Shown piece after piece: positions 1 to 34,671 of a stretch of DNA of 42,481 nt. The stretch is taken from positions 1 through 42,481 of the IMG/VR virus record IMGVR_UViG_3300037189_008114, one strand, 5' to 3'. The position numbers and the translations under genes were made by a program. Under the pieces are notes generated by a model that was not told where the DNA came from, did not search any database, and was given only the letters and a program-made list of their open reading frames with translations. The DNA comes from a virus. Position 1 is the first letter of the stretch, and the number at the start of each line of letters is the position of its first letter.

Positions 1-356
1 AGACACCGAACAGCAATACGGGGACGATGAGCAGGATCGATTTGATCCATAATATAAGGCAAGCTCTCGATACCGGGTTGAAACATGTCTTCAAAGTAGA
101 TAACATCTTCATTTGTAACTTCTCCTTGTTTCATCTTGCGTACAAGATTCATTAGTTGGCTCATACCAAAGTAAGTACGACCATGTGCATCTAACACCTG
201 TCCGGTTACGATAGCTTGATCGTTGCTGAGTGTTTCGCCTTCTACAATTTCGTAATTGATACCACGACGTTCGAATACCGCACGATTCCACTCTTGTAGT
301 TGTAGTGTGTATCGAGCTTTATAGGGCTCCAAGCCCATATACCATAACTTACGCAT
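1..356 (-). CDS. Possible glycosyltransferase-like phage protein, 3' end cut by window
   Basis: An open frame starts at an ATG (354-356) that overlaps the stop of the upstream glycosylase gene and runs off the left edge, giving 118 codons. The protein begins MRKLWYMGLEPYKARYTLQL and continues with TGQVLDAHGRTYFGMSQLMN and an acidic patch EDVIYFEDMFQPG (about residues 85-97). The hydrophobic start and the acidic FEDMF patch are compatible with a nucleotide-sugar glycosyltransferase, and I recall similar proteins in marine T4-like phages, but the catalytic half is outside the window. The overlap of start and stop places it at the distal end of the glycosylase-MazG operon. The function is a weak inference; the reading frame itself is secure. 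Confidence 0.5.
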   Translation of the reverse strand, partial: MRKLWYMGLEPYKARYTLQLQEWNRAVFERRGINYEIVEGETLSNDQAIVTGQVLDAHGRTYFGMSQLMNLVRKMKQGEVTNEDVIYFEDMFQPGIESLPYIMDQIDPAHRPRIAVRC

Positions 357-1411: not shown

Positions 1412-1882
1412 TTAGATTACGATTGAGTTGTAAGGGCGAGTGAGATTGTAAGTGATTGAGCATCCGTTCTCGCCATCCTCGGATACTTCAATTGTGATAT
1501 TGCGACCGGGATACTTGTCGGCAATTTGTAAGTGTAAGTCATCTGCGATCATTTCGCAGCTCTTGTAGTTGAGTTCTAAAACGGAACTCGAATTATTGTT
1601 ATTACCGGAATTGATATTGTACAAGGATTCGCACCAGCGTTTGAACTGGATGAACTCGATGTCCCGGTCGTTGTGGAACACATCGATTGACACCCGGAAG
1701 TGGAAAATATGACGATGGGGATTAGCAAGAAACGCAACATTATATTCATCATTAGTATTTAACATTGGATCCGTGGCAGCCGCCGGGTAACAGTGGATAC
1801 CTTCTTTACGGAAAGTGATCCATATTTGACGTTTAGCTTCGTCTTTAACTCTTTCGATTTGCTCTCTTTGTTCTTGGTTCAT
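1412..1882 (-). CDS. 6-pyruvoyl-tetrahydropterin synthase / QueD-like protein
   Basis: This 156-residue protein has the layout of the PTPS/QueD fold. The three zinc ligands can be assigned to His30 (GIHCYP) and His56/His58 (PHRHIFHF), followed by DIEFIQFK (74-81, in place of VDFGDLK), KSCEMIADDL (107-116) and the substrate-anchoring Glu of IEVSEDGENG (about residue 135). QueD makes 6-carboxy-tetrahydropterin, the second step from GTP to preQ0; phage QueD usually serves 7-deazaguanine modification of DNA or tRNA. The TGT/DpdA-like gene at 2983-4533 lies in the same gene run and supports that role. FolE, QueE and QueC are not in the window. A residue run NSGNNNNSSS near 91-100 is an unusual low-complexity insertion. 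Confidence 0.75.
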   Translation of the reverse strand: MNQEQREQIERVKDEAKRQIWITFRKEGIHCYPAAATDPMLNTNDEYNVAFLANPHRHIFHFRVSIDVFHNDRDIEFIQFKRWCESLYNINSGNNNNSSSVLELNYKSCEMIADDLHLQIADKYPGRNITIEVSEDGENGCSITYNLTRPYNSIVI

Positions 1883-1883
1883 A

Positions 1884-2282
1884 TTATGCTTTCAGACAGG
1901 ACATTGTGACAATCTTACCCAGGGCCGAATCAAAATCTTCTGATTCGTGTATGATATGTAAGTCCGATTCGGGACCAACCCCGCCAATGGTAACGGCATT
2001 GCGATTTATTTTGTTAACTTGCACAATCCAACCACCCGCGGCTTGTGCTACATTAAAGTTGATACTACTTGCTGTTATATTCATATGTGATAAATCTGTT
2101 TGAGTGTTGTATGAAAAACCACCATTACCTCCTCCGCCGAGTCCTGTGTAATAAAGATTACCAGCAGATGGACCGTTTACATTAACTGTATATCCCATTG
2201 GTTTATCTTTTTCCAGTACTAGCCTGCCTGCAGCAAACCAATTTAAGATAGTGATGCGAAAATTTTTGAACCATAATTTCAT
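1884..2282 (-). CDS. Hypothetical phage protein
   Basis: A 132-residue protein with no motif I recognise. It has a hydrophobic N-terminal stretch (FKNFRITILNWFAAG) that is not a clear signal peptide, a glycine-rich middle (YYTGLGGGGNGGFSYN) and a conserved-looking C-terminus (DLHIIHESEDFDSALGKIV). Its ATG overlaps the stop of the upstream gene by 4 bases (ATGA) and its own stop is one base from the QueD-like start, so it is tightly embedded in the QueD-TGT gene run. Confidence 0.65.
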   Translation of the reverse strand: MKLWFKNFRITILNWFAAGRLVLEKDKPMGYTVNVNGPSAGNLYYTGLGGGGNGGFSYNTQTDLSHMNITASSINFNVAQAAGGWIVQVNKINRNAVTIGGVGPESDLHIIHESEDFDSALGKIVTMSCLKA

Positions 2283-2794
2283 TTGATAATTTCATCTTTA
2301 GTATACTTTGACCAATCCGTAAACAGTTTACGATCCTTTAATTCATGTAAGCTATGACACCATACTCCGGGATTGGTTGCTGCAAAGTCTTTGTCGTCGA
2401 GCTTAATTGTAGCATTATATCCCAATAGTTGTAAATAGGGCAATTTCACCGAAATCATGGGAATAAAGTTATTGTACTCCACCAGACTGGATTCTACTAG
2501 ACCTTCAACACAGGTACTGTCTAGATCCAACGTGCATAGAAATCCTTTTTGCAAACAATCGTTAATCATTGTGTCCCACTCACGCCAATTGTCACCATCG
2601 TCGGTATCCAAATTGGGAAAACTTTGGTTAGCACCAAAATAAATGTGAGTACAATCGTTATTCATTGCTTCTTGCATGACAATCTGACTGTCTTGCAAGT
2701 CCACTACAAATAATGTTTTGAGTCCGTATGCTGGCGTGTGTTCTACTTCTCGTCCAATGAAAAAACTTATTTTTTCGTGACCTGCTCTTTTCAT
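2279..2794 (-). CDS. Conserved phage protein beside QueD/TGT genes, function unknown
   Basis: A 171-residue soluble protein. Notable segments are KISFFIGREVEHTPAYGLKT, THIYFGANQSFPNLD, CTLDLDSTCVEGL and MISVKLPYLQLLGYNATIKL. The alternation of short strands and helices is compatible with an alpha/beta fold, and the Asp-rich turns (DLDST, KLDDKDF) could bind metal, but no family-defining catalytic motif is visible. There is no CxxxCxxC radical-SAM motif, so it is not a classical QueE. I recall close relatives in marine T4-like phages located near queuosine-type genes; a linked role is inference. Confidence 0.65.
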   Translation of the reverse strand: MKRAGHEKISFFIGREVEHTPAYGLKTLFVVDLQDSQIVMQEAMNNDCTHIYFGANQSFPNLDTDDGDNWREWDTMINDCLQKGFLCTLDLDSTCVEGLVESSLVEYNNFIPMISVKLPYLQLLGYNATIKLDDKDFAATNPGVWCHSLHELKDRKLFTDWSKYTKDEIIK

Positions 2795-2805
2795 AATATA
2801 TTAAA

Positions 2806-2982
2806 CTAAGTTAAGTTGTCTTTTATTTTAGCAATTTCGTCTTTCAAATGCAACCTTTGTTTCTTCAAAACTTCTAAGGTAACATCTTCAAATACTCCTG
2901 TGCTTTCCATGCCATCAATGCGTTTATTAATTCGGGCATGTTCCTCTTCTAATTGTTGTAACCGGATTTCTGAATGATTCAT
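2806..2982 (-). CDS. DUF465/YdcH-like coiled-coil microprotein
   Basis: A 58-residue reading frame fills the gap between the TGT-like gene and 2794. It starts at ATG 2980-2982, directly after the TGT stop, and ends in TAG at 2806-2808. The protein begins MNHSEIRLQQLEEEHARINK and has the DUF465 (YdcH/SlyX-like) signature: an EEHARINKRID heptad segment followed by LEVLKKQRLHLKDEIAKI, matching the family LKKxKLxLKDEI pattern. Family members are tiny two-helix coiled-coil proteins; their function in phages is unknown. The exact adjacency with its neighbour makes it part of the same operon. Confidence 0.8.
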   Translation of the reverse strand: MNHSEIRLQQLEEEHARINKRIDGMESTGVFEDVTLEVLKKQRLHLKDEIAKIKDNLT

Positions 2983-4533
2983 CTATTCACCTAAATGTTC
3001 AAGTTTACTTTCATCAAATTCTAGTTCAGGCTCAATAACGTCGTCCTGACCACCCTCTACTTCAAATAACATATCAAACATGGCATTGCCATTTAAGGCC
3101 TTTTTGCCTTTGAATCCACGTGTGCCTACAATTTCCATCCAGTAGTTACTGTATGCCTCGATGATAGATTCACTTGTGGCACGGTCTGGCGCGGCAAAAA
3201 TTGCCTCCACTAGATCCTCAAAGTATTCGCCGCCTGGGCCTGTGCTACGCATCATGGCAGGGTGAGCACCAGCATCAAAACGTCTGTTGGCTTCTTGTAC
3301 TGCTGTCAAATGCATCCATACATTATGACCCATCAACAATGCATAACTGAATGAGTCCCAGGATGTCTTGCCTTCCTTGCCATTCTTATTTAGGTCGCCT
3401 GGCTTGTAGTAACAAATATCTTTCATTTTGAACATGTCACTCAAAGGACTATCTTCCCACCGTGGATACTTGCCGTCTGCGACCACACCATCTGACCACT
3501 TGCGTGTGTCGGTGGCATATTTTTTATCGTCTGCGCTTGGTGCCATTCTGTAGGACCATTTGCCGTTGTCCGGGAATACATTTTCAAAGTACACCTGTCC
3601 ATTGGCAGTTGCCAAGAAAGGACTAGCACAATCAAAGCTGATGGTAAATGCAGGGTTTGCATACTTACGAACATTGCGTTGAATAACTGTCAATAGTACT
3701 GCCCACTCTAGTTTACTTGTACCCAAGAAGTGCATCCAATCATGCACACCTTCTTGTAATAAACCGTCATACTTTAATGCAATTAATCGTCTAAGGATCA
3801 AGTGTACGTCGCACATGTTCTGACCACCCATGGCCCAACCATTGAAGTGAGTGTCTGGGTATTTCGCAGGATCACAATAGTCTTTCATCAAATCATACCA
3901 ACGATCAGCATCGGGATGATTGGCACCCTGCAACACATTAAGGAACTTGGCACCGCCATTGGCAACACCCTTGCGATGTTTCATGAAGTAGTCGTTATTG
4001 AACTTAGTAGCATCTACCGCTTGTTCCAGCGTTCGAATGCCGCACTTGTCACTAGCGTTCTTATCATGAATGACCCAGGTTGGAATATCAAGGATCATAC
4101 CATAGTCAGCAATGCCGTCAAGCCAAGCCAAAACTTGTTCACGTTTTTTCTGGGCCTTCGGGCATCCTGAGTTTGCTTTCCAATCGCCTTCCCATAGTCC
4201 TTTAGCGATCTGGAATCCTCCAGAGTCACCTAGTACTAGTGTGTTTGGGTCGCGATTGCGAACCATGTCCTCACTCCAGTCCTGCTTGGTGAGATCAAGG
4301 TTGGCGTGGCCACCGGAGTAAAGCGACCACTTATAAGGAAACAACCCCTTCTGACCATTTAGCCAGTTGAGTTGTTCCATATCTGTTAAACCCTGCGGAA
4401 AGCGACCAGGTTCTACATACGGTCCATTTACTGGATCACGTTGTTTACCTATAAAGGTAGCGTAGAAACCACTAATCGCCGGCAGGAATACGGCATAGTC
4501 TGACTGCTTGGCAGTCAAGTCGTCTTGTGTCAT
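2983..4533 (-). CDS. tRNA-guanine transglycosylase-like protein, candidate DpdA (7-deazaguanine insertion)
   Basis: A 516-residue TIM-barrel transglycosylase of the TGT superfamily. TGT landmarks are present in order: DSGGFQ (103-108, substrate-binding Asp), NVLQGANHPD (199-208, cf. VQGG), GWAMGGQN (232-239, cf. AIGGLAVG), HFLGTSKLEWAV (268-279) and DCASP (301-305), at the place of the nucleophile motif DCVMPTR. Near the C-terminus ALLMGHNVWMHL (398-409) matches the LLTxHNLxxY zinc histidine segment, but the CxCxxC cysteines of bacterial TGT are missing; only Cys374 remains. Phage DpdA proteins are TGT-like and put preQ0-type bases into DNA, and the QueD-like gene nearby fits. Whether the substrate is DNA or tRNA is not decided by sequence. 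Confidence 0.75.
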   Translation of the reverse strand: MTQDDLTAKQSDYAVFLPAISGFYATFIGKQRDPVNGPYVEPGRFPQGLTDMEQLNWLNGQKGLFPYKWSLYSGGHANLDLTKQDWSEDMVRNRDPNTLVLGDSGGFQIAKGLWEGDWKANSGCPKAQKKREQVLAWLDGIADYGMILDIPTWVIHDKNASDKCGIRTLEQAVDATKFNNDYFMKHRKGVANGGAKFLNVLQGANHPDADRWYDLMKDYCDPAKYPDTHFNGWAMGGQNMCDVHLILRRLIALKYDGLLQEGVHDWMHFLGTSKLEWAVLLTVIQRNVRKYANPAFTISFDCASPFLATANGQVYFENVFPDNGKWSYRMAPSADDKKYATDTRKWSDGVVADGKYPRWEDSPLSDMFKMKDICYYKPGDLNKNGKEGKTSWDSFSYALLMGHNVWMHLTAVQEANRRFDAGAHPAMMRSTGPGGEYFEDLVEAIFAAPDRATSESIIEAYSNYWMEIVGTRGFKGKKALNGNAMFDMLFEVEGGQDDVIEPELEFDESKLEHLGE

Positions 4534-16216: not shown

Positions 16217-17098
16217 TTAGTTTGTAGGCTGTGGTTGCTGTAGTTTAGCGCCTTGTGCAGCCAGTGTGTCTTCAATGATACCCATTGAACCACGCTTGCC
16301 AATGGCGATCTTATCCAAATCACCAGCATATTCATAGTGTCCAACGTGGTTAAGCAGGACTTTACTGTGTGCCCAGATTTCGCCACCTAGTTCTTGCCAA
16401 CGACGGCAGAACAGCCAATCTTCGCTCAAATAGTGTCCGCGCTCATCAATTTTACAGTCAAAAATACTATACATCATTGGCTCGTACTGTTTACCTAGAC
16501 CTACATCGTCTACATATTTGCATTCTGGATGTGCAGCAATCAGTTTTTCGTACACAGGACGCTTGAACAACAAGAAACCTGTGCCCATTGTATCTACTGT
16601 AAAAATGTCGCCTTGTATCTTTGTTTCTGGTTTCAAGTTAATAACATAACTTACAGGCAATGCTTTTTTAGGATATAATCCACCGATAACTTCTTTATCG
16701 TATGCAATCATCTGCAGGATTGATTCTGGCTGGAAACGGATATCAGCATCAATGAACATAAAATGTGTGGCCTGTGTGTTGGTCATCATCTTAGCCATCA
16801 AGTTATTACGAGCACGAGTTACCAGTGATTCATTGACCATGGTATCCAAAGACCAATTTAAACCGGCCTGTTGTGCCAACAATGTAAAACGCAGGAAACT
16901 AGTCATGGTTGGCTCACTTACCATGCCACCGTAGCAAGGAATACCGATGTGCAAATGAATCTTGCTAAAGTCAAACGGTTGACCTTGTTGTTGCTGAGCA
17001 CCTGCTTGTGGTGCCTGCTGTGCCTGTTGCTTCTGTTTTGCGGCAGCAGCTTTGATCATTGCTACAGCGTCTTTTTGGTCGATCTTCTTATCACTCAT
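16217..17098 (-). CDS. Glycosyltransferase, GT2/GT-A-like
   Basis: A 293-residue protein with a Gln/Ala-rich N-terminal tail (residues 8-40) followed by a GT-A-fold domain starting HLHIGIPCYGGMVSEPTM. The metal/nucleotide-sugar DxD motif is FIDADIRF (Asp117, Asp119), preceded by ARNNLMAKMM as in Anp1/GT2-like phage enzymes. VDTMGTGFLLFKRPV and the acidic YLSEDWLFCRRWQELGG (about 230-246) resemble the ED catalytic-base motif of GT2 enzymes. Likely modifies phage DNA, virion protein or host surface sugar. The low-complexity tail is unusual for an enzyme and suggests attachment to another component. Confidence 0.78.
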   Translation of the reverse strand: MSDKKIDQKDAVAMIKAAAAKQKQQAQQAPQAGAQQQQGQPFDFSKIHLHIGIPCYGGMVSEPTMTSFLRFTLLAQQAGLNWSLDTMVNESLVTRARNNLMAKMMTNTQATHFMFIDADIRFQPESILQMIAYDKEVIGGLYPKKALPVSYVINLKPETKIQGDIFTVDTMGTGFLLFKRPVYEKLIAAHPECKYVDDVGLGKQYEPMMYSIFDCKIDERGHYLSEDWLFCRRWQELGGEIWAHSKVLLNHVGHYEYAGDLDKIAIGKRGSMGIIEDTLAAQGAKLQQPQPTN

Positions 17099-17311: not shown

Positions 17312-18037
17312 TTATTTATGTGGCAGCACAACCAGCTCGTGAATATTCAGTACCAAATTGGGATGGATTAAATTAAGGAACATGGTCACACTGGGATCAT
17401 TGGTATAAAAATACGCATTCCATACATAACCACTTCGGCCTGTTAACATAGCTATCAAATTGTCAGATATGGTTAGAGTATCACCGTTTAAATTGGTTAG
17501 GTAGCGTAATATACTCATTTTAATTTCGGAGGTATATCGCCCGTCTCGTATGATTACTTTATGTGTATATCCAATATCGGTCTTGCGTATGATAGCGCCA
17601 GAATTTAATACTTCTTCTGCTTCACTATCAGCTGGTCCGGCGATGCTCTCGACATATTTACAAAATGGTTTTAATTGATTGTTTATTAGATTCAGCAGTT
17701 CTGTTTCGGTTTCAGCATATATTTGTACTCTAGGTTCTTCAACTCTCAGCTTAAGGCCATTTGGATTTCGGCGCAGATCACGTAGCGTTTCTAGTAATTC
17801 AATATCAGCATGATCTAAATCTTTGTTATATCTATGTCCCCACCATCCAGACTGATTAATATTTTTAGTAACAGCGAGTCTATGTTCCAGAGCCGAATTT
17901 ATCGAGACTTTCTCGTCAATTAATCTGCCCGCTGGGGCATATACAATTATTTTGTATAAGTATCGCCCGAAGTATTTTTTGAGAGTGTGGTCTACTGCAA
18001 TCTTAGGATTGCACTGAGTCCAAGACAATATATCCAT
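17312..18037 (-). CDS. Hypothetical phage protein downstream of clpA
   Basis: A 241-residue soluble protein beginning MDILSWTQCNPKIAVDHTLK. It has a strand-rich N-terminal part (GRYLYKIIVYAPAGRLI), a helical DHADIELLETLRDLRRNPNG, and a C-terminal VWNAYFYTNDPSVTMFLNLI. No catalytic motif is evident. Its start overlaps the end of the ClpA-like gene by 35 bases; no better internal start was found, so the coupling appears real. Function unknown; an adaptor or substrate of the ClpA-like protein is conceivable from position only. Confidence 0.6.
   Translation of the reverse strand: MDILSWTQCNPKIAVDHTLKKYFGRYLYKIIVYAPAGRLIDEKVSINSALEHRLAVTKNINQSGWWGHRYNKDLDHADIELLETLRDLRRNPNGLKLRVEEPRVQIYAETETELLNLINNQLKPFCKYVESIAGPADSEAEEVLNSGAIIRKTDIGYTHKVIIRDGRYTSEIKMSILRYLTNLNGDTLTISDNLIAMLTGRSGYVWNAYFYTNDPSVTMFLNLIHPNLVLNIHELVVLPHK
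17313..17319 (-). promoter_or_regulatory. T4-type late promoter motif before 17123-17287
   Basis: Minus-strand ATAAATA ends 26 bases before the ATG at 17287, overlapping the stop of the upstream gene. AT-rich context makes chance occurrence possible. Confidence 0.4.
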
Positions 18038-20291
18038 TTGAATCTATCATAGGTGCTACGTTGGGGAATGCCTCGAGCACGGTTAGTTTGAATTCTTCAT
18101 CTGCATAATCTATTTCAACAATACGATTAGCTTCAATGTTTTCAAATAAGATCTTCTTACTGAGTGGTACTTTAATCAAATCGTTAATCTTACGACCCAA
18201 TGGACGAGCACCTAGTTTAGCATCGTAACCAACTTCAACCAGATGGTCTACAGCAGCTTCGGTCAATCTTACTTTTAGTGACTTTTCACTGAGCAACTCA
18301 TTCATTTCGTTAATAAACTTAGCAACGATCTTCTTGATGCTTACTGCGTCTAGTTTGTTGAACTTACAGATACCATCTAAACGATTACGAAACTCTGGCT
18401 TAAAGAAATCTTTAACTGCTTTGTCATCTTCGCCGGACTTTTGTAAATCCTTACCAAAACCAATTGTATTGCGTTCATTGTCGGCAGCACCCAAATTACT
18501 TGTAAGAATAATAATAGAATTACGTCCATCCGCTTTCTTGCCATTTGAACTTGTAATAGTACCTTCATCCATTAACTGTAATAGAACATTCATTACGTCC
18601 TGATGTGCTTTTTCAACTTCGTCAAACAAGATAACACAGTTGGGATTCTTTTCGATGTCGCTGATCAGCATACCACCGCCTAGGTTACTATCATCATAAC
18701 CAATGTATCCTGGGGGAGCACCAATCAACTTGGCAACAGAGTGTTTCTCTTGATACTCGCTCATGTCGTATCGTAGCATCTTCATGCCCATGCCTTCTGC
18801 TAACAATTTAGCAAGTTCTGTTTTACCTGTGCCTGTTGGCCCCAGGAATAAGAAATTACCAATTGGTTTATTCAACGACTTTAGACCTGCACGAGCCACA
18901 TAGATCTTTTCTAATACAGTTTCAACAACCTTGTCTTGTCCGTATAGTTTTGTTTTGACTGTTTCTTCCAAATTAACAAGACTCTTGGTGCTTTCGCTAC
19001 CAATTTGTTCTACTGGAATCTTGGTAAATCTGCTGATAATATCAACAATGTGATTCTTACGCACAGTCCAATTCATAGCATTGATTTTTAATTTGGCCGC
19101 GGCTGTGTCAATTAAATCAATGGCCTTGTCTGGTAGCCGCTTGTCTGGTTGATATCGAACCGATAAATCAACAGCGGCATCAACAGCGTCATCACTGATT
19201 TGACCACCATGGAAGTCTTCAAAGTATTCACGTAGGCCACGTAGAATGTCTTTGGCTACCGCCGGAGTGGGTTCTTCTACTGTCATACGCACAAAGCGAC
19301 GCATTAGGGCACGGTCTTTTTCAAAGCTACTTGTATATTCTTCCCATGTAGTACTTGCCAGGACTTTGATATTACCTTTGCTCAACGCTGGCTTGATCAT
19401 GTTGGCAAAATCTACAGAGCTGTTGCCAGCACTTCCGGCACCACGCATTTGGTGTGCTTCGTCGATAAACAAAATACACTTGCCTTTTGACTTTAGTGCC
19501 CCGATAACATCTTTGAACTTTTCTTCAAATTCGCCTCGATACTTTGAACCAGCAAGCAATGAGCCAATGTCCAAGTTGTAAACCGTGTAATCACGTAGAT
19601 ATTCCGGTACACGACCATCGACAATATTGCGTGCCAGTCCTTCGGCAATAGCAGTCTTACCCACACCCGGATCGCCAACTAACAGCACATTTGATTTGTT
19701 GCGTTTGGCAAGTACCTGTGCAATTTCATCTAGTTCAAACTCACGTCCTACCACAGGATCAATTTTGCCTTCTTTGGCTTGTAAATTTAAGTTTTCGCAA
19801 TGTTCTTTGAGTATGTCATCGGCACGAATGTCGGGACTGATGCGTTTGCCTTTGCTTTCAACATAGTTTGAATTATAAAATTCTACCATTTGACTACGCT
19901 CAAGTCCGTACTTGATAAAAAAGTAACTGGCATGGCTGTTTACTTCTGACACAATACTTAAGAAGATATCAATGATTTGCACATGATTGCGTCCGCTGAA
20001 TAATACCTGTGTGAAAGCACGATTAAACACTCGCTCTAGGCTGTGTGTTTTCTTGGGAATAATATCCTGTTCGGTGTTGGCAATATAAGTCTGCCGATCA
20101 AGGTATTCTTCCAGGTCGGTTAATAAACCGAGGTTGTCTGCGCCAAAGGCTATCAGTAAATCGCTAAAAGGTTTAAAACTAACCAACCCATGAGCAAGAT
20201 GCTCTAAAGTTACATATTCGTGGTTATATTTTTTTGCTAGATCAGTGGCATTGGAAACGACAACTTCAATTTCAGGATTGTGGTGTATCAT
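18003..20291 (-). CDS. clpA: ClpA-type AAA+ unfoldase
   Basis: A 762-residue protein with full ClpA architecture (E. coli ClpA 758). The N-terminal double Clp repeat spans about 1-145 (HEYVTLEHLAHGL). D1 carries Walker A GDPGVGKTA (206-214) and Walker B LFIDEAH (274-280); D2 carries GPTGTGKTE (484-492), ILFDEVEKAH (554-563) and sensor 2 LGARPLGR. There is no ClpB middle coiled coil. Residues 609-612 (TIGFGKD context) sit exactly where ClpA has its IGL/IGF loop that docks into ClpP. Both ATP sites look active. It follows dnaJ at 12 bases. It most likely recruits host ClpP to degrade or remodel proteins. Confidence 0.9.
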   Translation of the reverse strand: MIHHNPEIEVVVSNATDLAKKYNHEYVTLEHLAHGLVSFKPFSDLLIAFGADNLGLLTDLEEYLDRQTYIANTEQDIIPKKTHSLERVFNRAFTQVLFSGRNHVQIIDIFLSIVSEVNSHASYFFIKYGLERSQMVEFYNSNYVESKGKRISPDIRADDILKEHCENLNLQAKEGKIDPVVGREFELDEIAQVLAKRNKSNVLLVGDPGVGKTAIAEGLARNIVDGRVPEYLRDYTVYNLDIGSLLAGSKYRGEFEEKFKDVIGALKSKGKCILFIDEAHQMRGAGSAGNSSVDFANMIKPALSKGNIKVLASTTWEEYTSSFEKDRALMRRFVRMTVEEPTPAVAKDILRGLREYFEDFHGGQISDDAVDAAVDLSVRYQPDKRLPDKAIDLIDTAAAKLKINAMNWTVRKNHIVDIISRFTKIPVEQIGSESTKSLVNLEETVKTKLYGQDKVVETVLEKIYVARAGLKSLNKPIGNFLFLGPTGTGKTELAKLLAEGMGMKMLRYDMSEYQEKHSVAKLIGAPPGYIGYDDSNLGGGMLISDIEKNPNCVILFDEVEKAHQDVMNVLLQLMDEGTITSSNGKKADGRNSIIILTSNLGAADNERNTIGFGKDLQKSGEDDKAVKDFFKPEFRNRLDGICKFNKLDAVSIKKIVAKFINEMNELLSEKSLKVRLTEAAVDHLVEVGYDAKLGARPLGRKINDLIKVPLSKKILFENIEANRIVEIDYADEEFKLTVLEAFPNVAPMIDSNGYIVLDSVQS

Positions 20292-20296
20292 AAAAA

Positions 20297-20303
20297 TATT
20301 TAG
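20297..20303 (-). promoter_or_regulatory. Late-type motif CTAAATA directly before clpA
   Basis: Minus-strand CTAAATA (20303-20297) sits 5 bases before the clpA ATG. With T4 late geometry the transcript would begin at the A of the ATG, i.e. leaderless. Chance in AT-rich sequence cannot be excluded. Confidence 0.35.
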
Positions 20304-21134
20304 TTAAGAGTTGATTAAGCCACGCACAATGTCCAATGCTTCTGGACTAAAGTTTTGTGGAACGGTAAGAACAATTTCAATGTATAAATCTCCACGTGTG
20401 GTAGAGTTCATTTGGTACAATCCTTGTTGTGGAATTCTATATCGTGTTCCGGCTTGTGTTCCTGGACTTAGGGTCATTTCAAATACTCGTCCATCCAATC
20501 CAGTAACTTGTACAGGACCACCTGCAATAGCTAACAAACAGTTTACACGAGATTCGGTATATAAGTCAATTCCGTGTACACCAAATCCTTCAGCTGAATG
20601 AACATTAAATTGCACATACAAATCTCCACGGGGGATGGTATTGAACATGTTGTCACCTAAACCACTATATTTGATATTAGTTCCATGGGTAACACCGCGT
20701 GGTATGGTAACTTCCAAGTTGGATTTTTCACCTGTAGTGGTGGTTACCTGTATAGTTTTTTTTTGTTCTTCTAATGTAGTAACCAATGGGATCGGAATTT
20801 CAATGCGCAGATCTTTGTTTCGACGCTGTTGTTGACGTTGCTGCACAAATGGGTCATGACCAAAACCAAAGTTTTTAAAAATATCATCAAGATTACCATG
20901 ATTGAAATGAAATTGGAATCCGCCATTTTGCCCACCAAATCCCTGTCGTTGCATATCGTACTGCTGGCGTTTTTGATCATCACTGAGTGTGTCGTATGCC
21001 GACTGTATTTCTTGAAATTTGGTTTTGTCACCGCCCTTGTCGGGATGATGTTGGCTTGCTAGTTTCCTATAAGCCTTTTTGATTTCGTCTGGTCCGGCTT
21101 GTTCGGATACGCCTAAAGTATTGTAATGGGTCAT
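20304..21134 (-). CDS. dnaJ: DnaJ/CbpA-type co-chaperone
   Basis: A 276-residue type II J-protein. The J domain covers residues 1-63 with the HPD motif at 30-32 (LASQHHPDKGG). A G/F-rich linker follows (QGFGGQNGGFQFHFNHGN), then two beta-sandwich substrate-binding domains (from about residue 105: DLRIEIPIPLVTTLEEQKKT; then GDLYVQFNVHSAEGF). The CxxCxGxG zinc repeats of type I DnaJ are absent, as in CbpA. J-proteins deliver substrates to host DnaK and stimulate its ATPase. The gene is followed by clpA after 12 bases and preceded by a near-consensus sigma70 promoter, so the pair is an operon. Confidence 0.93.
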   Translation of the reverse strand: MTHYNTLGVSEQAGPDEIKKAYRKLASQHHPDKGGDKTKFQEIQSAYDTLSDDQKRQQYDMQRQGFGGQNGGFQFHFNHGNLDDIFKNFGFGHDPFVQQRQQQRRNKDLRIEIPIPLVTTLEEQKKTIQVTTTTGEKSNLEVTIPRGVTHGTNIKYSGLGDNMFNTIPRGDLYVQFNVHSAEGFGVHGIDLYTESRVNCLLAIAGGPVQVTGLDGRVFEMTLSPGTQAGTRYRIPQQGLYQMNSTTRGDLYIEIVLTVPQNFSPEALDIVRGLINS

Positions 21135-21142
21135 ATCTTTGT

Positions 21143-21171
21143 ATTATACGTGAAAATGCCGGCAGAGTCAA
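21143..21171 (-). promoter_or_regulatory. Near-consensus sigma70 promoter of dnaJ-clpA
   Basis: Minus strand: TTGACT (21171-21166), 17-base spacer, TATAAT (21148-21143, perfect). The predicted start is about 21136, so the dnaJ leader would be only 1-3 bases (near leaderless). The -35 box lies in the loop of the terminator-like hairpin 21155-21184. Confidence 0.75.
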
Positions 21172-21184
21172 CTATACCGGCATT
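21155..21184 (-). terminator. Hairpin between 21199-21387 and dnaJ, terminator-like
   Basis: Arms aatgccgg (21155-21162) and ccggcatt (21177-21184) form a perfect 8-bp stem with a 14-base loop. On the minus strand the stem ends in TTTTC, on the plus strand in TTAGTTTTT. It may end the lysis-side transcript while its loop carries the -35 box of the next promoter. Confidence 0.5.
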
Positions 21185-21882: not shown

Positions 21883-22170
21883 TTAAGCTTCTAAAGACTG
21901 TTTGTCTTCTTGGGCTTTTAATGCTGCATCTAATAGAGTTAATAAACTCTCTATAAGTGTATTTAACTGAGTTTTGAATTCTGAGTCCTCGGCATCAATG
22001 ACTTGTACATGCACTTCTTTAATCATGGCACGGTATTCCACTGGGTGCATAAAACCCAATAAGGATTGATGTGTGATTTGTGAAATGTAGTCTGCAGCAA
22101 TCTTATATTCTGGATGCTCGCAGATTTCTGCCATTTCTGCCAGACCTTGTTGAGTTTCTTCTAATGTCAT
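21883..22170 (-). CDS. Small helical protein, paralogue of the next gene
   Basis: A 95-residue all-helical acidic protein beginning MTLEETQQGLAEMAEICEHP. It aligns along its whole length with 22208-22465: start (M-L-x3-Q-x-LAE), the middle (D-IxxIxxxxxxGxM), and the end (FKTQLNTLIESLLTLLDAAL versus FKEKLNACINGLIMIAKAV). No known motif. The two genes are a tandem duplication; role unknown. Confidence 0.65.
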   Translation of the reverse strand: MTLEETQQGLAEMAEICEHPEYKIAADYISQITHQSLLGFMHPVEYRAMIKEVHVQVIDAEDSEFKTQLNTLIESLLTLLDAALKAQEDKQSLEA

Positions 22171-22207: not shown

Positions 22208-22465
22208 TTATACAGCCTTTGCGATCATAATCAAACCATTAATACAAGCATTTAGTTTTTCTTTAAAAGCCAATTGACTCATATCTTCTAATATGGCCAA
22301 TTGACTTTGTGCATCAGACATAATTTCTTCTACTTCACTATTGCTCATTTGTCCCGATTTAGCCTGCTCAACAATCATATTAATATCGTTAGCAAATTTG
22401 GCAAATATTGGATCTCCACTGTTAGCAACTTCTGCCAATGTGTGTTGTATATTATCTAAGTTCAT
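22208..22465 (-). CDS. Small helical protein, paralogue of the previous gene
   Basis: An 85-residue acidic helical protein (MNLDNIQHTLAEVANSGDPI; ANDINMIVEQAKSGQMSNSE). Its ATG overlaps the stop of the lipoprotein gene by 4 bases (ATGA), so it is co-translated with it. Related in sequence to 21883-22170. Function unknown; possibly a lysis or virion accessory component given position. Confidence 0.65.
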   Translation of the reverse strand: MNLDNIQHTLAEVANSGDPIFAKFANDINMIVEQAKSGQMSNSEVEEIMSDAQSQLAILEDMSQLAFKEKLNACINGLIMIAKAV

Positions 22466-29849: not shown

Positions 29850-30770
29850 TTATCCTATCTGAGTTAGTTCAATTAAGGTCGCCGACAAGTTAATTTCTGG
29901 ATCGGCACACATGGGATGATTAACCAGGCCTTTGCGTATTGCCAGGATTGCCGAGTCTTGTCCTTCCTGTGTTTTTGACCACAGTTCTAAGTTATCATAC
30001 ATCCAACGGAACAGTTCATCCATGTCTTCACTGCCGGCTTGGGCACAAATTGCCTTGCGCCCTTCTACAATCTTACCGGACTTAAAATAATTTACTGCGT
30101 CGAGTTTCCAATCTTTGATACCGCGATCATTTTCGCCCGGGGTGTTTAGTGTGCCTGTTGTGCTGTTGGCCTGTAACAAATTTAAACATTTACGTAAATC
30201 TGGATATGTTGCTTTGACATAACTGTCTAGTGTGTCTAATTCAAACTCTGCACCTTCGGTGACTAACACAGTGGCCGCCCTGGCTGTAAACTCTGTTACA
30301 TCCGACTTGTCAATATGGAAACCCTGGCAACGACTATGCAATGCTGGAATAATCTTGTGCGGCATATTGCAAGTTAAAATAAAGCGGGCTGACTCTTGAT
30401 ATGTTTCCATAAGTCCACGCATGATCGCCTGCGCATTGTGGGTCAAATAGTCGGCCTCGTCCAGCAACACAACCTTAAATGGGCCAAACGGCATTGTACT
30501 AACAAAGCCTTCTACACGAGTTTTAATAAAGTCCACACCGTTATCTCGGCTAGCATTGATATGTAATGTGTCGTATTCTTCAATACCTAGCTCATTGATC
30601 AACACCTTGGCCAATGTGGTTTTACCTGTGCCCGGACTACCGCTTAACAATATATGCGGGATAGCACCTTCTTTAATCCATGCATCTACTTGTTGTCTTT
30701 GATTGGCATCGGTGAACACATAGTCTGCTACTGTTTTAGGACGATACTTTTCTGTCCAGAGTTCTTTCAT
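29850..30770 (-). CDS. Clamp-loader ATPase, gp44-like
   Basis: A 306-residue AAA+ protein, length close to T4 gp44 (319). It begins ELWTEKYRPKTVADYVF, a typical clamp-loader start; Walker A GSPGTGKT (44-51), Walker B LLDEAD (102-107), sensor 1 LTCN (132-135) and the arginine-finger motif SRC (146-148). It assembles the gp45 clamp on DNA with the small subunit. The clamp and polymerase genes lie about 24 kb away, unlike T4, where 45-44-62-43 are adjacent. Confidence 0.92.
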   Translation of the reverse strand: MKELWTEKYRPKTVADYVFTDANQRQQVDAWIKEGAIPHILLSGSPGTGKTTLAKVLINELGIEEYDTLHINASRDNGVDFIKTRVEGFVSTMPFGPFKVVLLDEADYLTHNAQAIMRGLMETYQESARFILTCNMPHKIIPALHSRCQGFHIDKSDVTEFTARAATVLVTEGAEFELDTLDSYVKATYPDLRKCLNLLQANSTTGTLNTPGENDRGIKDWKLDAVNYFKSGKIVEGRKAICAQAGSEDMDELFRWMYDNLELWSKTQEGQDSAILAIRKGLVNHPMCADPEINLSATLIELTQIG

Positions 30771-30976
30771 TCTGTTATCCCAAATGTTTGTTTAATAATT
30801 GTTGTATCAGCTATTGTAACACACTCGTTGGCAATTAACTTGGCAAATGTTTCCAAAGCATCCTTGGGATCTGCTAGCTTACCGTCTTTGGTTGCTACTA
30901 AAATCGGCATACCTACGCTGTTGGTTGCTGGTTCGATGCCAGCTTTTTTTGCAAGTTCGGTAATGCGCTTGATCAT
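30767..30976 (-). CDS. Small conserved phage protein
   Basis: A 69-residue helical protein (MIKRITELAKKAGIEPATNS; ETFAKLIANECVTIADTTII; KQTFGITE end). The KxxFGI/V ending and FAxLIxxEC pattern resemble a widespread short phage protein. Function unknown. Start overlaps the CDGSH-like gene stop (ATGA), and its end overlaps the gp44 start by 4 bases. Confidence 0.65.
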   Translation of the reverse strand: MIKRITELAKKAGIEPATNSVGMPILVATKDGKLADPKDALETFAKLIANECVTIADTTIIKQTFGITE

Positions 30977-31143
30977 TTGTCACCCATTGGTTGGCTGTTG
31001 AGATTTTCTTTTGTTTCGTGTTCGGCTAGTTTAATGCGATAATTTTCTTCGCTCAGGGCATGCCAACCTATGCAATTACCTGTGGGACTGCGACCACATC
31101 CACATGTACCAATCTTACCGGTTGGGTTTGTTTTTACTTGCAT
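30973..31143 (-). CDS. CDGSH-like iron-sulfur or zinc microprotein
   Basis: A short frame of 56 residues from ATG 31141-31143 to TGA 30973-30975. The text reads MQVKTNPTGKIGTCGCGRSP, TGNCIGWHALSEENYR. CGCGRSPTGNCIGWH has the CDGSH pattern C-x-C-x2-S-x(4)-C-x-G-x-H, with one residue less between Ser and the third Cys and Ile for Asp. CDGSH domains bind a labile 2Fe-2S cluster with three Cys and one His. The match is partial, so a zinc knuckle is an alternative. Start and stop overlap neighbours, so it belongs to this operon. Confidence 0.65.
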   Translation of the reverse strand: MQVKTNPTGKIGTCGCGRSPTGNCIGWHALSEENYRIKLAEHETKENLNSQPMGDK

Positions 31144-31334
31144 TTTGATTTTCCTTTGAATAGATCGATAATGTTTTTAAAACGTGATTTATATGGATCA
31201 GATAAAATACTATCCAACATACTTGGATGATGAGGACAACGACCTTGCATAAAGTCACACATGGGTGTATACTCTTGACCGCAAGTGCTACAATTTATCT
31301 TTTGAGTATTTCTACTATTTGTTCTTGTTCCCAC
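31134..31334 (-). CDS. Small zinc-finger-like protein
   Basis: A 66-residue protein starting at GTG 31332-31334, with GGAG seven bases before it. NCSTCGQEYTPMCDFMQGRC then PHHPSM gives CxxC (about 15-18) and a distant CxxH-like pair, as in a treble-clef or ribbon knuckle. The C-terminus is basic and amphipathic (RFKNIIDLFKGKSKCK). Small such proteins in T4-like phages are of unknown role. Overlaps the upstream gene by 40 bases and the CDGSH-like gene by 10. Confidence 0.65.
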   Translation of the reverse strand: MGTRTNSRNTQKINCSTCGQEYTPMCDFMQGRCPHHPSMLDSILSDPYKSRFKNIIDLFKGKSKCK

Positions 31335-31516
31335 AGTTCTTCTCCGACAAATTTTGGCAACTGACTATATTCTTCTTCTAGCCAACATTTTAACATATAC
31401 AATTCGTGTTTGCAAGAACTACTTGTCCATCCGTCATTGTAAGGACTACGTATTTCGCCCAAACTGTTGCGTATAACAGAGTATGCTGAATTAAGATCGG
31501 GTTTACGAAATCCCAT
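31295..31516 (-). CDS. Small hypothetical phage protein
   Basis: A 73-residue protein, MGFRKPDLNSAYSVIRNSLG, then a Cys (SSSCKHELYMLKCWLEEEYS) segment and helical EELWEQEQIVEILKR end. The IRNSLGEIRSPYNDGWTS middle is a loop-rich stretch. No motif recognised; conservation in related phages is presumed, since it is tightly packed between two neighbours. Confidence 0.55.
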   Translation of the reverse strand: MGFRKPDLNSAYSVIRNSLGEIRSPYNDGWTSSSCKHELYMLKCWLEEEYSQLPKFVGEELWEQEQIVEILKR

Positions 31517-31517
31517 T

Positions 31518-31667
31518 TTAACTTGGAATCATGTGTGGAATATAAGGAACGTTGCGGGGGCCGTGACGTTGTTCCAGCAACTTTTTTGCTTCTTGTGCGG
31601 TTGATGCAAACACTCGCTCTTTGGTTTCCCCGGCAGGTGTCCGTACTGTAGTTTCGTACATTGGCAT
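31518..31667 (-). CDS. Small hypothetical protein (49 aa)
   Basis: A short frame from ATG 31665-31667 to TAA 31518-31520, beginning MPMYETTVRTPAGETKERVF. The strand-helix pattern (TPAGETKERVFASTAQEAKK) resembles a small DNA- or protein-binding unit such as a mini-KH-like fragment, without proof. Its start overlaps the stop of the GroES-like gene by one base (TAATG), and a larger frame in another register (to 31836) is an artefact. Function unknown. Confidence 0.6.
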   Translation of the reverse strand: MPMYETTVRTPAGETKERVFASTAQEAKKLLEQRHGPRNVPYIPHMIPS

Positions 31668-32086
31668 TAGTTGTATTGCTCTCTACGTTTACGCTCAGCA
31701 TGGACAGCGGTTGAAACGGTTTCCATTGTGTCTGGTTCTTCATCCTGTGCAAAAATGATTCCATTGGGGTCGGCACGACGTATAACAAACTCCTCACCTT
31801 CAATGGAAACTTTAAGCCCGCGAGTCCAGCGACCATGTTCGATTAGAACCCATTGCCCGATGGCAACATCTTGCTGGTCTGGGCCAATTTCGTACACTTT
31901 GGCCCAGCGTGGGCGAATGCCATCAGTTTTACCATCATCGCCTAATAGTACAATACCACTGGCCAACTGTCGCAGATCAAAACTCATGTCACGAACTATA
32001 ATATGATCGTGTAAGGCGCGAAGGCCCGGAATCTCATTGGTTGATTGCCACAGGGTTTTAGTGTCAAACGGATTTTCAACTGCCAT
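31667..32086 (-). CDS. GroES/gp31-like cochaperonin
   Basis: A 139-residue protein. Residues about 20-112 follow the GroES fold: LRALHDHIIVRDMSFD (22-37), mobile-loop region with the docking motif GIVLL (44-48), KVYEIGPDQQDVAIGQWV (63-80), then HGRWTRGLKVSIEGEEFVIR (84-103), ending NGIIFA. The mobile-loop hydrophobic tripeptide is what binds GroEL. T4 gp31 is a 111-residue GroES substitute needed for capsid protein folding. A C-terminal tail (TVSTAVHAERKRREQYN) extends it. With dnaJ and clpA this adds a third chaperone function. Confidence 0.75.
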   Translation of the reverse strand: MAVENPFDTKTLWQSTNEIPGLRALHDHIIVRDMSFDLRQLASGIVLLGDDGKTDGIRPRWAKVYEIGPDQQDVAIGQWVLIEHGRWTRGLKVSIEGEEFVIRRADPNGIIFAQDEEPDTMETVSTAVHAERKRREQYN

Positions 32087-32087
32087 A

Positions 32088-32525
32088 TTATATTCTCGAT
32101 GGGCCTTTTGGTTTACGTGGATCTACGGATGGACCTTGATTAACTGTAGTTGGTTTAGCAACACTATTAGCTAATGCTCCACGACGTGCTGTAGTTGCGG
32201 GTTTGTCTGGATCCACCACGGGTTCACCAACACTGGGCTCAACCAAATTATTAACTAAATCATGCAGGGCCTTGGCCTTGGTTGCATCTGCAGCAGCTTG
32301 ACGTTTAGCAACTTCAGCAGAAGTATTTGGACTATACCCTTCGCTAACAGCATAGGTCCGATCCATAATTTGATTACGACCGGCCGCAATTTGCCCGCCT
32401 GCGCCTATTAGGTCTCCGCGTGCATTGACTTTCATATTACCAATTGCAATAGCGGTTTCGTTAGACAACTTAATTCTGTCTATGTCAACCTGTTTGCCTC
32501 TTGCTGTTTTGTATACTCTTGACAT
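32088..32525 (-). CDS. Conserved structural-type phage protein
   Basis: A 145-residue protein: MSRVYKTARGKQVDIDRIKL, then SNETAIAIGNMKVNARGDLI and GAGGQIAAGRNQIMDRTYAV. The second half is Ala/Pro-rich and disordered. The KTARGKQVDID and GNMKVNARGD elements are shared, from memory, with proteins of T4-like marine phages thought to be virion components. A canonical late promoter lies 20 bases upstream with an AGGAG SD. Confidence 0.65.
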   Translation of the reverse strand: MSRVYKTARGKQVDIDRIKLSNETAIAIGNMKVNARGDLIGAGGQIAAGRNQIMDRTYAVSEGYSPNTSAEVAKRQAAADATKAKALHDLVNNLVEPSVGEPVVDPDKPATTARRGALANSVAKPTTVNQGPSVDPRKPKGPSRI

Positions 32526-32544
32526 TTAATTCTCCTGTTATGGG

Positions 32545-32552
32545 TATTTATA
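32545..32552 (-). promoter_or_regulatory. Canonical T4-type late promoter TATAAATA
   Basis: Full TATAAATA on the minus strand (32552-32545), ending 20 bases before the ATG at 32525. It is the best late-type match in the window and supports gp33/gp55-type late control. Confidence 0.6.
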
Positions 32553-32563
32553 AACTACCCAGT

Positions 32564-33076
32564 TTACTTCAAAAATTCTTCAATCGGAAGATCATAGTAT
32601 AAACTATTGATCCGGTGTACTCCCAGCAAATATAACACATAACTGGCTGTACTTGAACCTCTACCTAGGCCCCATACTACATTATTTGTTCGCATGGTAT
32701 CTACAAAGTATTTAAGATACTGTAATAAATCAAATAAGTCACGTTCTTGATACAAAAGTAATTCTTCGCCAACACGCTGTAATTCAGCGTCGGTTGTACA
32801 TAAACTCAATACATGTTCGGCAATGTTTAACTCCTGATACTCTTTGGGCATACGCCAATGGCTTTGTAGTTGTTTATCAAATTCTTCAACTGTAACATCA
32901 TACGGAGTATACTCATCAAGTAACGGTAATTCTGAATAGGTATCCATACAGGCACGATTGTATTGAGTTGGGTCCTCCACAAAAAAACTAGCAAGATTTA
33001 AACTGGGGTTTTGGTACAGCATGTCACAGAGTTCATTTTCTGTTGTGTATGCCCGTCCATATTGATCAAACTTCAT
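32564..33076 (-). CDS. PolIII-alpha palm-like fragment, catalytic aspartates missing
   Basis: A 170-residue protein whose second half resembles the region just before the active site of bacterial DNA polymerase III alpha: NNVVWGLGRGSSTASYVLYL (131-150) and LGVHRINSLYYDLPIEEFLK (151-170). In the polymerase, GxGRGS-x-xSLVxYxLGIT-x-DPLxYxLxFERFL is followed at once by the catalytic DxD (PDFDxD); here the protein stops after FLK. So it keeps the GRGS (138-141) but no catalytic residues. It cannot polymerise; it may bind DNA or a partner. A helical N-terminal half (residues 1-125) shows no known domain. Confidence 0.65.
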   Translation of the reverse strand: MKFDQYGRAYTTENELCDMLYQNPSLNLASFFVEDPTQYNRACMDTYSELPLLDEYTPYDVTVEEFDKQLQSHWRMPKEYQELNIAEHVLSLCTTDAELQRVGEELLLYQERDLFDLLQYLKYFVDTMRTNNVVWGLGRGSSTASYVLYLLGVHRINSLYYDLPIEEFLK

Positions 33077-33309
33077 TGTATATCGATAATGTTTTTAAAG
33101 TTTTTGGAATTCTTTTCCATATCGGCTAAAACCTTGTTATTGCGTAGTTGTATTTCGTTTTGGTAGTCTTCCATCAACATCTGTATTTGCTGTATCATAT
33201 CAGTTTGCCCAATGCGATATGCATAGGTTATACGCTTTAGTAAATCACCATACTTACTATTAAGCTCATCTAAACTCAACTTACTAAGGTCTGGGGCTAA
33301 TGGATGCAT
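33073..33309 (-). CDS. Small coiled-coil phage protein, first gene of its operon
   Basis: A 78-residue helical protein (MHPLAPDLSKLSLDELNSKY; GDLLKRITYAYRIGQTDMIQ; QIQMLMEDYQNEIQLRNNKV). I recall the MHPLAPDLSKL start and QIQMLxxDYQxEI helix in marine T4-like phages. Function unknown. A strong AAGGAG SD and a near-perfect sigma70 promoter lie upstream; an inverted repeat overlaps them. Confidence 0.7.
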   Translation of the reverse strand: MHPLAPDLSKLSLDELNSKYGDLLKRITYAYRIGQTDMIQQIQMLMEDYQNEIQLRNNKVLADMEKNSKNFKNIIDIQ

Positions 33310-33318
33310 AAATGAAAA

Positions 33319-33354
33319 CTCCTTGTATAATTATATAGCAATTATCACAAGGAG
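33319..33354. repeat. Inverted repeat framing the -10 box
   Basis: Perfect 8-bp arms ctccttgt (33319-33326) and acaaggag (33347-33354), 20 bases apart, bracket the TATAAT of the promoter and cover the SD. Placement suggests an operator for a dimeric repressor. One arm equals the SD region, so the arms could also reflect SD-like sequence. Confidence 0.5.
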
Positions 33355-33358
33355 TCAA
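33330..33358 (-). promoter_or_regulatory. Near-consensus sigma70 promoter of the 33309 operon
   Basis: Minus strand: TTGACT (33358-33353), 17-base spacer, perfect TATAAT (33335-33330). Predicted start near 33323, 14 bases before the ATG at 33309. Confidence 0.7.
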
Positions 33359-33375
33359 GTGGTTTTGATGATTAA

Positions 33376-34671
33376 TTAGAATGTTGTTAAACTAGCTTTT
33401 TTCCAGTTATTTGGTCCTAGGCAAATATAAACATTGCCAGAATCGTAACTAATTTGTCCAACAGTTCCGCCTGAGCTGGAACTTGTTGGAACATAAACGT
33501 TAGCAACTATGATATTGCCTGTCGCAGTCACATTTTTATCAATTATAACATTGCCAAAGAAACGAGCACTTTGATCATTTTCAATTCCCAGGGCCTGTGT
33601 TGTTACATTGGCATTGGTTCTACCAGACTGTGCAGTAAAAAATGCTATGTTACCGCCGATGCCGCCAAAGGTATTTGCACCTGTGGCATAATAACGCATG
33701 CCTGCAGTCTGTACAAAATATTGGTTGGTATTGCCTACAGTTGGTGTGTAGGCAAAAGCACTTACGAAACCCAGCATGTCGTTGTTTTGAACATTGGCAA
33801 AGGTGCCAGTATAGATATTACCACGTGTGGCAGTGATTGAATATCCTGCTACGCCTTGTGATGAATTTATTCCATCGTTGTATATGAGAGTATTGGCATT
33901 TACTGTGGAAAGATTGCCAATCATGACTGAATTCAAACTGCCTCTTACACTGACTACATCTTGCCCTTGCTCAATGGCCAGACCGGTTTGTAAGCTGTTT
34001 TGATTGTAACCAATTAATAAAGATGGGCTAATGGAATCAACATTGTTTAGATAAAAACTAGGATCACGGAACGTGGCATGATTGCGGGTAGCGTCAAATA
34101 TTAAATAACTGTTACCACCATCAATACTGCTAAAATCAAATATAAAATTGCCCGGAGCATCGAATGTGATAGTATTATTGGCAGGATTATAACCAACAAT
34201 TTCATTTACACCGACACTGACACTGACAGGTAATGTTATAGTATGTGATGCACTACTAAGTACAATCCATACTCGCATGGATCCATACCCTAGCGCACCG
34301 GTACCTGTTGACGTTGGCCAGTTTGCAAACTCTAAATTAATTGACCCAGCAGTAGTTATTTTTTGGAAGTTGGCTTGATTAAAATCTAAAGTAGCACTAG
34401 TGCTAATAGCACCAAGATCATATAATGACTGTGTCCATGCACTTAGCTGAGGACGTCTAATAACAGCCCCAGCCATGTCGTTGTTAAGTGACTGGCCGTT
34501 TAACGCACCTGTTAGTAGGACTTTGCCTTGCAGATCGTTAAGTTCATTTTGTGCAAACAAAAAGTTATTCTTAATGTTTGTAAAATTATCACGGAAACCT
34601 TGGCTAGAATTATCTTGCCCCGCCACAGGGAAAGCGCCGTTGATATTGTATGGGTTAATGTTTGATGCCAT
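33376..34671 (-). CDS. Tail fibre-like protein
   Basis: A 431-residue protein beginning MASNINPYNINGAFPVAGQD followed by SSQGFRDNFTNIKNNFLFAQ, the N-terminal unit used by T4-like marine phages for fibre attachment. The body is a beta-rich Asn/Ser/Thr repeat region (FNQANFQKITTAGSINLEFA; NTITFDAPGNFIFDFSSIDG). The C-terminal module VPTSSSSGGTVGQISYDSGN, YICLGPNNWKKASLTTF recurs in the next gene. Virion adhesion role likely. A late-type motif stands 25 bases upstream. Confidence 0.75.
   Translation of the reverse strand: MASNINPYNINGAFPVAGQDNSSQGFRDNFTNIKNNFLFAQNELNDLQGKVLLTGALNGQSLNNDMAGAVIRRPQLSAWTQSLYDLGAISTSATLDFNQANFQKITTAGSINLEFANWPTSTGTGALGYGSMRVWIVLSSASHTITLPVSVSVGVNEIVGYNPANNTITFDAPGNFIFDFSSIDGGNSYLIFDATRNHATFRDPSFYLNNVDSISPSLLIGYNQNSLQTGLAIEQGQDVVSVRGSLNSVMIGNLSTVNANTLIYNDGINSSQGVAGYSITATRGNIYTGTFANVQNNDMLGFVSAFAYTPTVGNTNQYFVQTAGMRYYATGANTFGGIGGNIAFFTAQSGRTNANVTTQALGIENDQSARFFGNVIIDKNVTATGNIIVANVYVPTSSSSGGTVGQISYDSGNVYICLGPNNWKKASLTTF

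Follow-up and report, generated by a model that had tools for sequence, protein, structure and literature searches.

A phage ClpA unfoldase encoded with DnaJ in a conserved operon, and its probable role in a jumbo-phage ClpAP(S) protease

The stretch of DNA analysed here (the window, 42,481 bases) is a virus record and a fragment of a phage genome, which encodes a phage DNA polymerase (PHROG match), a clamp loader, an endolysin, and PhoH. Within it, a gene for an AAA+ unfoldase (clpA) follows a gene for a J-domain protein (dnaJ) on the same strand, with 12 bp between them, and a promoter embedded in a terminator-like hairpin precedes the pair (Table 1). A holin-like gene (Pfam) is located a short way upstream of dnaJ. 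Two adjacent small genes in the window (21883–22170 and 22208–22465) appear to be tandem paralogues and both match one gene of a 356,865-base contig, G001. A PHROG_1574 gene (16217–17098) is 91% identical in G001, and its position behind clpA is kept in many relatives.

Table 1. Features of the dnaJ-clpA locus. Positions are those of the window, or residues of ClpA where stated.
Feature	Position	Strand	Basis
Terminator-like hairpin around the -35 box, AATGCCGG...CCGGCATT and then a T run	21155..21184	-	folding
-35 box TTGACT of the dnaJ promoter, within the hairpin	21166..21171	-	
-10 box TATAAT, 8 nt ahead of the dnaJ ATG	21143..21148	-	
dnaJ, class B (CbpA-like) J-domain protein, 276 aa	20304..21134	-	ORF, Pfam, motif check
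clpA, AAA+ unfoldase, 762 aa	18003..20291	-	ORF, Pfam, PHROG, PDB comparison
ClpA N domain	residues about 5-140		
ClpA D1 Walker A	residues 206-213		
ClpA D2 Walker A	residues 484-491		
ClpA D2 pore loop GYIG	residues 528-531		
Codons of the IGFG ClpP-docking loop (residues 610-613)	18453..18464	-	alignment with E. coli ClpA IGL
Third gene, encoding 241 aa and starting within clpA, which it overlaps by 35 bp	17312..18037	-	

The clpA product has the N domain and the two complete AAA+ modules of the class 1 Hsp100 unfoldase ClpA (Pfam domains Clp_N, AAA, AAA_lid_9, AAA_2, and ClpB_D2-small), and matches PHROG_4871, 'ATP-dependent protease', over nearly its full length (E 1.6e-240). Across 92 homologues, the Walker A and B motifs, the Arg finger, sensor 2, and the two pore loops are conserved, and all are intact in the window's protein, an observation that bears out a preliminary description of this DNA that had assigned both ATP sites and the N domain. 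That description had also claimed that the ClpB middle domain is missing. The two Walker A motifs are indeed 278 amino acids apart, compared with 280 in an Acinetobacter ClpA, and a spacing like that of ClpA leaves no room for a middle domain, unlike in ClpB or ClpC. Among solved structures the closest is E. coli ClpA (1ksf, 609 bits), with ClpC at 511 bits and ClpB at 509, and the phage protein has the domain order, motifs, and docking-loop position of E. coli ClpA. A segment of the N domain reads HEYVTLEHL in the phage protein versus HEFMTVEHL in E. coli ClpA. Alignment of the phage ERNTIGFG with ERKSIGL of E. coli ClpA places IGFG exactly at the ClpP-docking loop, as had been proposed, and this loop is IGF in 80 of the 92 homologues. 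Identity as ClpB or ClpC is ruled out by the Walker A spacing, the PDB scores, and a tree with ClpC-type sequences; where a ClpB/ClpC-type phylogeny lacking loop conservation had been envisaged as contrary evidence, we found a ClpA grouping and a retained loop.

The dnaJ product has the Pfam domains DnaJ and DnaJ_C. The HPD motif (residues 30–32) is kept in 77 of 77 readable sequences, and a zinc finger (CXXCXGXG) was not found in the 276-amino acid protein. The combination of a J domain with HPD, a DnaJ C-terminal region, and no zinc finger is that of a class B (CbpA-like) J protein, in keeping with the CbpA-type DnaJ described earlier as coupled to ClpA. The gene precedes clpA in the same orientation in 74 of 80 viral loci, mostly as its immediate neighbour; the remaining six have clpA at one end of the contig or close to it. 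A dnaJ gene is also near clpA in phages Atu_ph07, Phosso, and MIJ3. In contrast, the Acinetobacter locus examined pairs clpA with clpS. Phage DnaK was found in only 2 of 18 relatives, and so the phage DnaJ must normally use host DnaK. Contig G007, a phage contig that also has dnaJ-clpA and clpP, encodes consecutively, at 1492–4257, DnaK (638 amino acids), an Hsp20-like protein (called by sequence alone), and ClpS; the DnaK of contig G012 is 70% identical to that of G007.

The third gene also occurs behind clpA in 40 other loci. Its product is predicted by AlphaFold to have a confident fold (pLDDT 94), for which no convincing match was obtained in the PDB, and in sequence it matches only uncharacterised phage proteins, one of which is from Atu_ph07. 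A known ClpA adaptor was considered and rejected, as neither Pfam nor PHROG gave a match and the fold comparison was likewise unconvincing. The protein may be a substrate of ClpA, an adaptor, or a bystander.

The dnaJ promoter (TTGACT-17-TATAAT) matches the sigma70 consensus at 11 of 12 positions and scores highest in a 13-kb scan. The predicted start point is at ~21136, which would make the dnaJ mRNA practically leaderless. The hairpin around the -35 box has a folding energy of -15.7 kcal/mol (z -4.8). In close relatives, the -35 box, T run, and -10 box are kept and the stem is altered on both sides. Among 76 upstream regions, promoters matching at least 10 of 12 positions occur in 51 (versus 3.0 in single-base shuffles), leaders no longer than 9 nt in 36 (versus 0.6), and terminator-like hairpins with a T run in 35 (versus 1.2, by a strict rule that misses the window's own hairpin), an excess that is clear although its exact size is not, given the simple base shuffles and the presence of near-duplicate loci. 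The -35 or -10 box is inside the hairpin in most of the 35 regions bearing one. Conservation across the 76 regions rules out a chance promoter, and the near-consensus sigma70 promoter noted in the preliminary description is thereby joined by strong promoters recurring before dnaJ in relatives far above chance.

Contig G001 as a whole has 50 promoters matching at least 11 of 12 positions (versus about 10 in shuffles), 43 of them on one strand. Five of the 50 overlap a terminator-like hairpin, and among these only the one at dnaJ has an ATG 4–9 nt past the -10 box. An extended pattern like TTGACCnATAAATCCnTTTAATnTATAAT is common to many strong G001 promoters, frequently followed by an ATG 6 nt past the -10 box, and some of these promoters precede tRNA-like sequences. 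The pattern suggests a family of phage promoters yielding leaderless mRNAs.

Because the promoter is embedded in the terminator of the upstream genes, host sigma70 RNA polymerase would transcribe the dnaJ-clpA operon independently of those genes. Transcription arriving from those genes would terminate at the hairpin, and a transcript initiated at the promoter would not be stopped by it, since it lacks the 5' arm; on this simplest reading the operon would be insulated. The terminator-embedded, nearly leaderless promoter constitutes a compact control element whose layout is constant while its stem sequences vary.

The window is collinear with ~7.3–54.5 kb (about 47 kb) of G001, whose ClpA is 84% identical to that of the window and is the sole G001 ATPase with a ClpB_D2-small domain. 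Neither clpP nor clpS occurs within the 42-kb window. The absence of ClpP had been remarked on correctly, yet it is uninformative about the phage, since the window is a fragment and clpP (88.2 kb) and clpS (119 kb) of G001 both lie beyond the matching stretch. In G001, clpP is ~56 kb from clpA and not part of its operon. The G001 ClpP (196 amino acids) has a catalytic Ser-His-Asp triad that aligns with that of host ClpP, scores 259 bits against a solved ClpP, and is closest among phage proteins to those of Phosso and Atu_ph07 (70–71% identity).

A search for phage clpP elsewhere, which had been suggested as a check, thus found it in G001, and it also found PF00574 in nine of the ten phage records that carry this ClpA match; a cognate ClpP with the triad is present in the collinear 357-kb relative and these nine records, the window being too short to show one. 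The tenth record (735 kb), without PF00574, has a ClpC-like protein without the IGF loop. PF00574 also occurs in 8 of 13 long contigs, as canonical ClpP in six and only as a paralogous ClpP-like protein in two, and ClpS in 18 of 21 (17 above the cut-off). Contigs G003 (250 kb), G008 (199 kb), and G011 (181 kb), which may be incomplete, encode ClpA without ClpP. In contig G005, two ClpP-like genes, ClpS, and a ClpX-sized ATPase are located within 4 kb (30461–34117). Phage ClpP has been detected, by one peptide only, in CBB virions (PMC5259590).

These results bear on the earlier proposal that phage ClpA operates on host ClpP, and DnaJ with host DnaK, soon after infection, with the destruction of host defence or sigma factors as the outcome. 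In its favour, the IGF loop would suit bacterial ClpP, the sigma70-type promoter suggests that unmodified host polymerase transcribes the operon, and clpP is absent from the window and several large contigs. However, close and cultured relatives encode a catalytic ClpP, and usually ClpS. The canonical ClpP and ClpS of G001 and the ClpP of nine of ten ClpA-bearing phage records weaken the case for seizure of host ClpP as the primary design, and we consider the proposal unlikely. The parts of the earlier interpretation that stand are a phage unfoldase/co-chaperone operon with its own promoter of host type, an intact ClpP-docking loop, and the normal need for host DnaK. With regard to early expression, what the sequence shows is the host-like promoter.

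The docking loop provides a further comparison. Ten phages have a ClpP that aligns with G001 ClpP at 185 bits or more, and in all ten the loop is IGF or IGY; in all five whose ClpP reaches no more than 151 bits it is IGV, VGF, LGM, or MNM. These five are the RaK2-like group and Vibrio phage 2.275, phages of enterobacteria and a vibrio, and their five ClpAs form one clade in the tree, so that the co-divergence counts as one or few events and is phylogenetically confounded. With that proviso, the sequences are suggestive of a ClpA loop diverging in step with phage ClpP. Loops such as MNM, LGM, and IGV accompanying a divergent phage ClpP would be unexpected if the partner were host ClpP, although here too ancestry confounds the comparison.

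An intact ClpA and DnaJ, their conserved linkage, and the presence of ClpP and ClpS in G001 and most cultured relatives are observed directly. From the sequences, the window's ClpA is probably the unfoldase of a jumbo-phage ClpAP(S) protease, co-expressed with a DnaJ co-chaperone from an autonomous operon. ClpA hexamers would dock through the IGF loop on phage ClpP, with host ClpP probably fitting as well. Substrates would enter through the ClpA N domain, either directly or by way of ClpS, and be unfolded and degraded, and DnaJ would deliver misfolded proteins to host DnaK. The task of ClpA may be quality control while virions are made or, with about the same likelihood, removal of host proteins. 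Counting against a phage ClpAP(S) protease are the lack of clpP and clpS in the window, the three ClpA-bearing contigs in which ClpP was not found, and the distance of clpP from clpA in G001.

ClpA could instead be mainly a ClpP-independent remodelling chaperone that works with DnaJ and DnaK, for example in dissociating replication or tail-assembly complexes. The linkage to dnaJ in every viral locus with a readable upstream side fits such a role, as does the presence of clpA, in a variety of phages, among genes for tail or structural proteins, and plasmid P1 RepA is a substrate that ClpA and DnaJ/DnaK are each able to remodel. Translocase or assembly roles have also been proposed for phage ClpA (Iyer et al., PMC7824862). 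Retention of the IGF docking loop in most homologues and the ClpP usually encoded by the same genome argue against this role, which we judge quite improbable. Still harder to sustain is the idea that clpA is a recently acquired host gene without a fixed role in the phage. Its ancestry is clearly bacterial ClpA, but the phage ClpAs (that of the 735-kb phage excepted) cluster together with support (SH-aLRT 99) and separately from bacterial ClpA, with long internal branches, and the best matches to the window's ClpA in the genome collection are only ~40% identical. Despite great divergence, the phages have kept the catalytic motifs, the order of the genes, and the promoter. The tree and the low identity of the nearest matches lead us to reject recent acquisition, to which we assign a very small probability.

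A broader reading, which we offer tentatively, extends the ClpAP(S) protease to a lineage of environmental jumbo phages. Its members would carry a self-contained protein-turnover system, composed of the dnaJ-clpA operon, their own ClpP and ClpS, and in some DnaK and Hsp20, in which ClpA would have co-evolved with the phage ClpP. A recurrent composite element would control the operon, its promoter within the upstream terminator hairpin giving a leaderless dnaJ mRNA and an insulated operon. With a phage-encoded ClpP, the question shifts from seizure of host ClpP to the targets of a phage-owned ClpAP protease, a matter that the proteins of cultured phages (Atu_ph07 or PA5oct, for instance) allow one to test.

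The ClpA and DnaJ of the window are not the first of their kind, since phage ClpA, ClpP, and ClpS and a dnaJ-clpA pair have been reported in Atu_ph07 (ClpA gp292, DnaJ gp293, ClpP gp676, and ClpS gp708; Attai et al. 2018, PMC6102473). That phage additionally carries ClpX and ClpB, and the roles suggested there were proteolysis, assembly, replication, and the clearing of aggregates (PMC6102473). ClpA, ClpP, ClpS, and DnaJ are also listed among jumbo-phage proteins (Iyer et al. 2021, PMC7824862). In open-access papers, we did not find a description of a conserved dnaJ-clpA operon combined with co-divergence of loop and ClpP and a terminator-embedded leaderless promoter, nor anything usable on leaderless promoters with terminators or on ClpA in PA5oct virions.

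Atu_ph07 resembles the window in the identical order of its dnaJ-clpA pair, its membership in the phage ClpA group, and its own ClpP and ClpS. It differs in that its ClpA is only ~40% identical and its corresponding dnaJ site has no recognisable sigma70 promoter or hairpin. Similarly, Sinorhizobium phage Phosso and Pseudomonas phages MIJ3 and PA5oct have dnaJ adjoining clpA or one gene from it, the IGF loop, and their own ClpP and ClpS, but in Phosso a peptide deformylase lies between dnaJ and clpA, and in MIJ3 the DnaJ is shorter and distant. In the RaK2-like phages (RaK2, GAP32, Munch, and XaC1) and Vibrio phage 2.275, clpA is solitary, inverted, and flanked by structural-type genes, and that of RaK2 has a perfect 12/12 sigma70 promoter, which fits autonomous transcription. 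These phages share with the window an orthologous ClpA and a ClpP-like protease of their own, whereas their clpA has no adjoining dnaJ and both their ClpP and docking loop are divergent.
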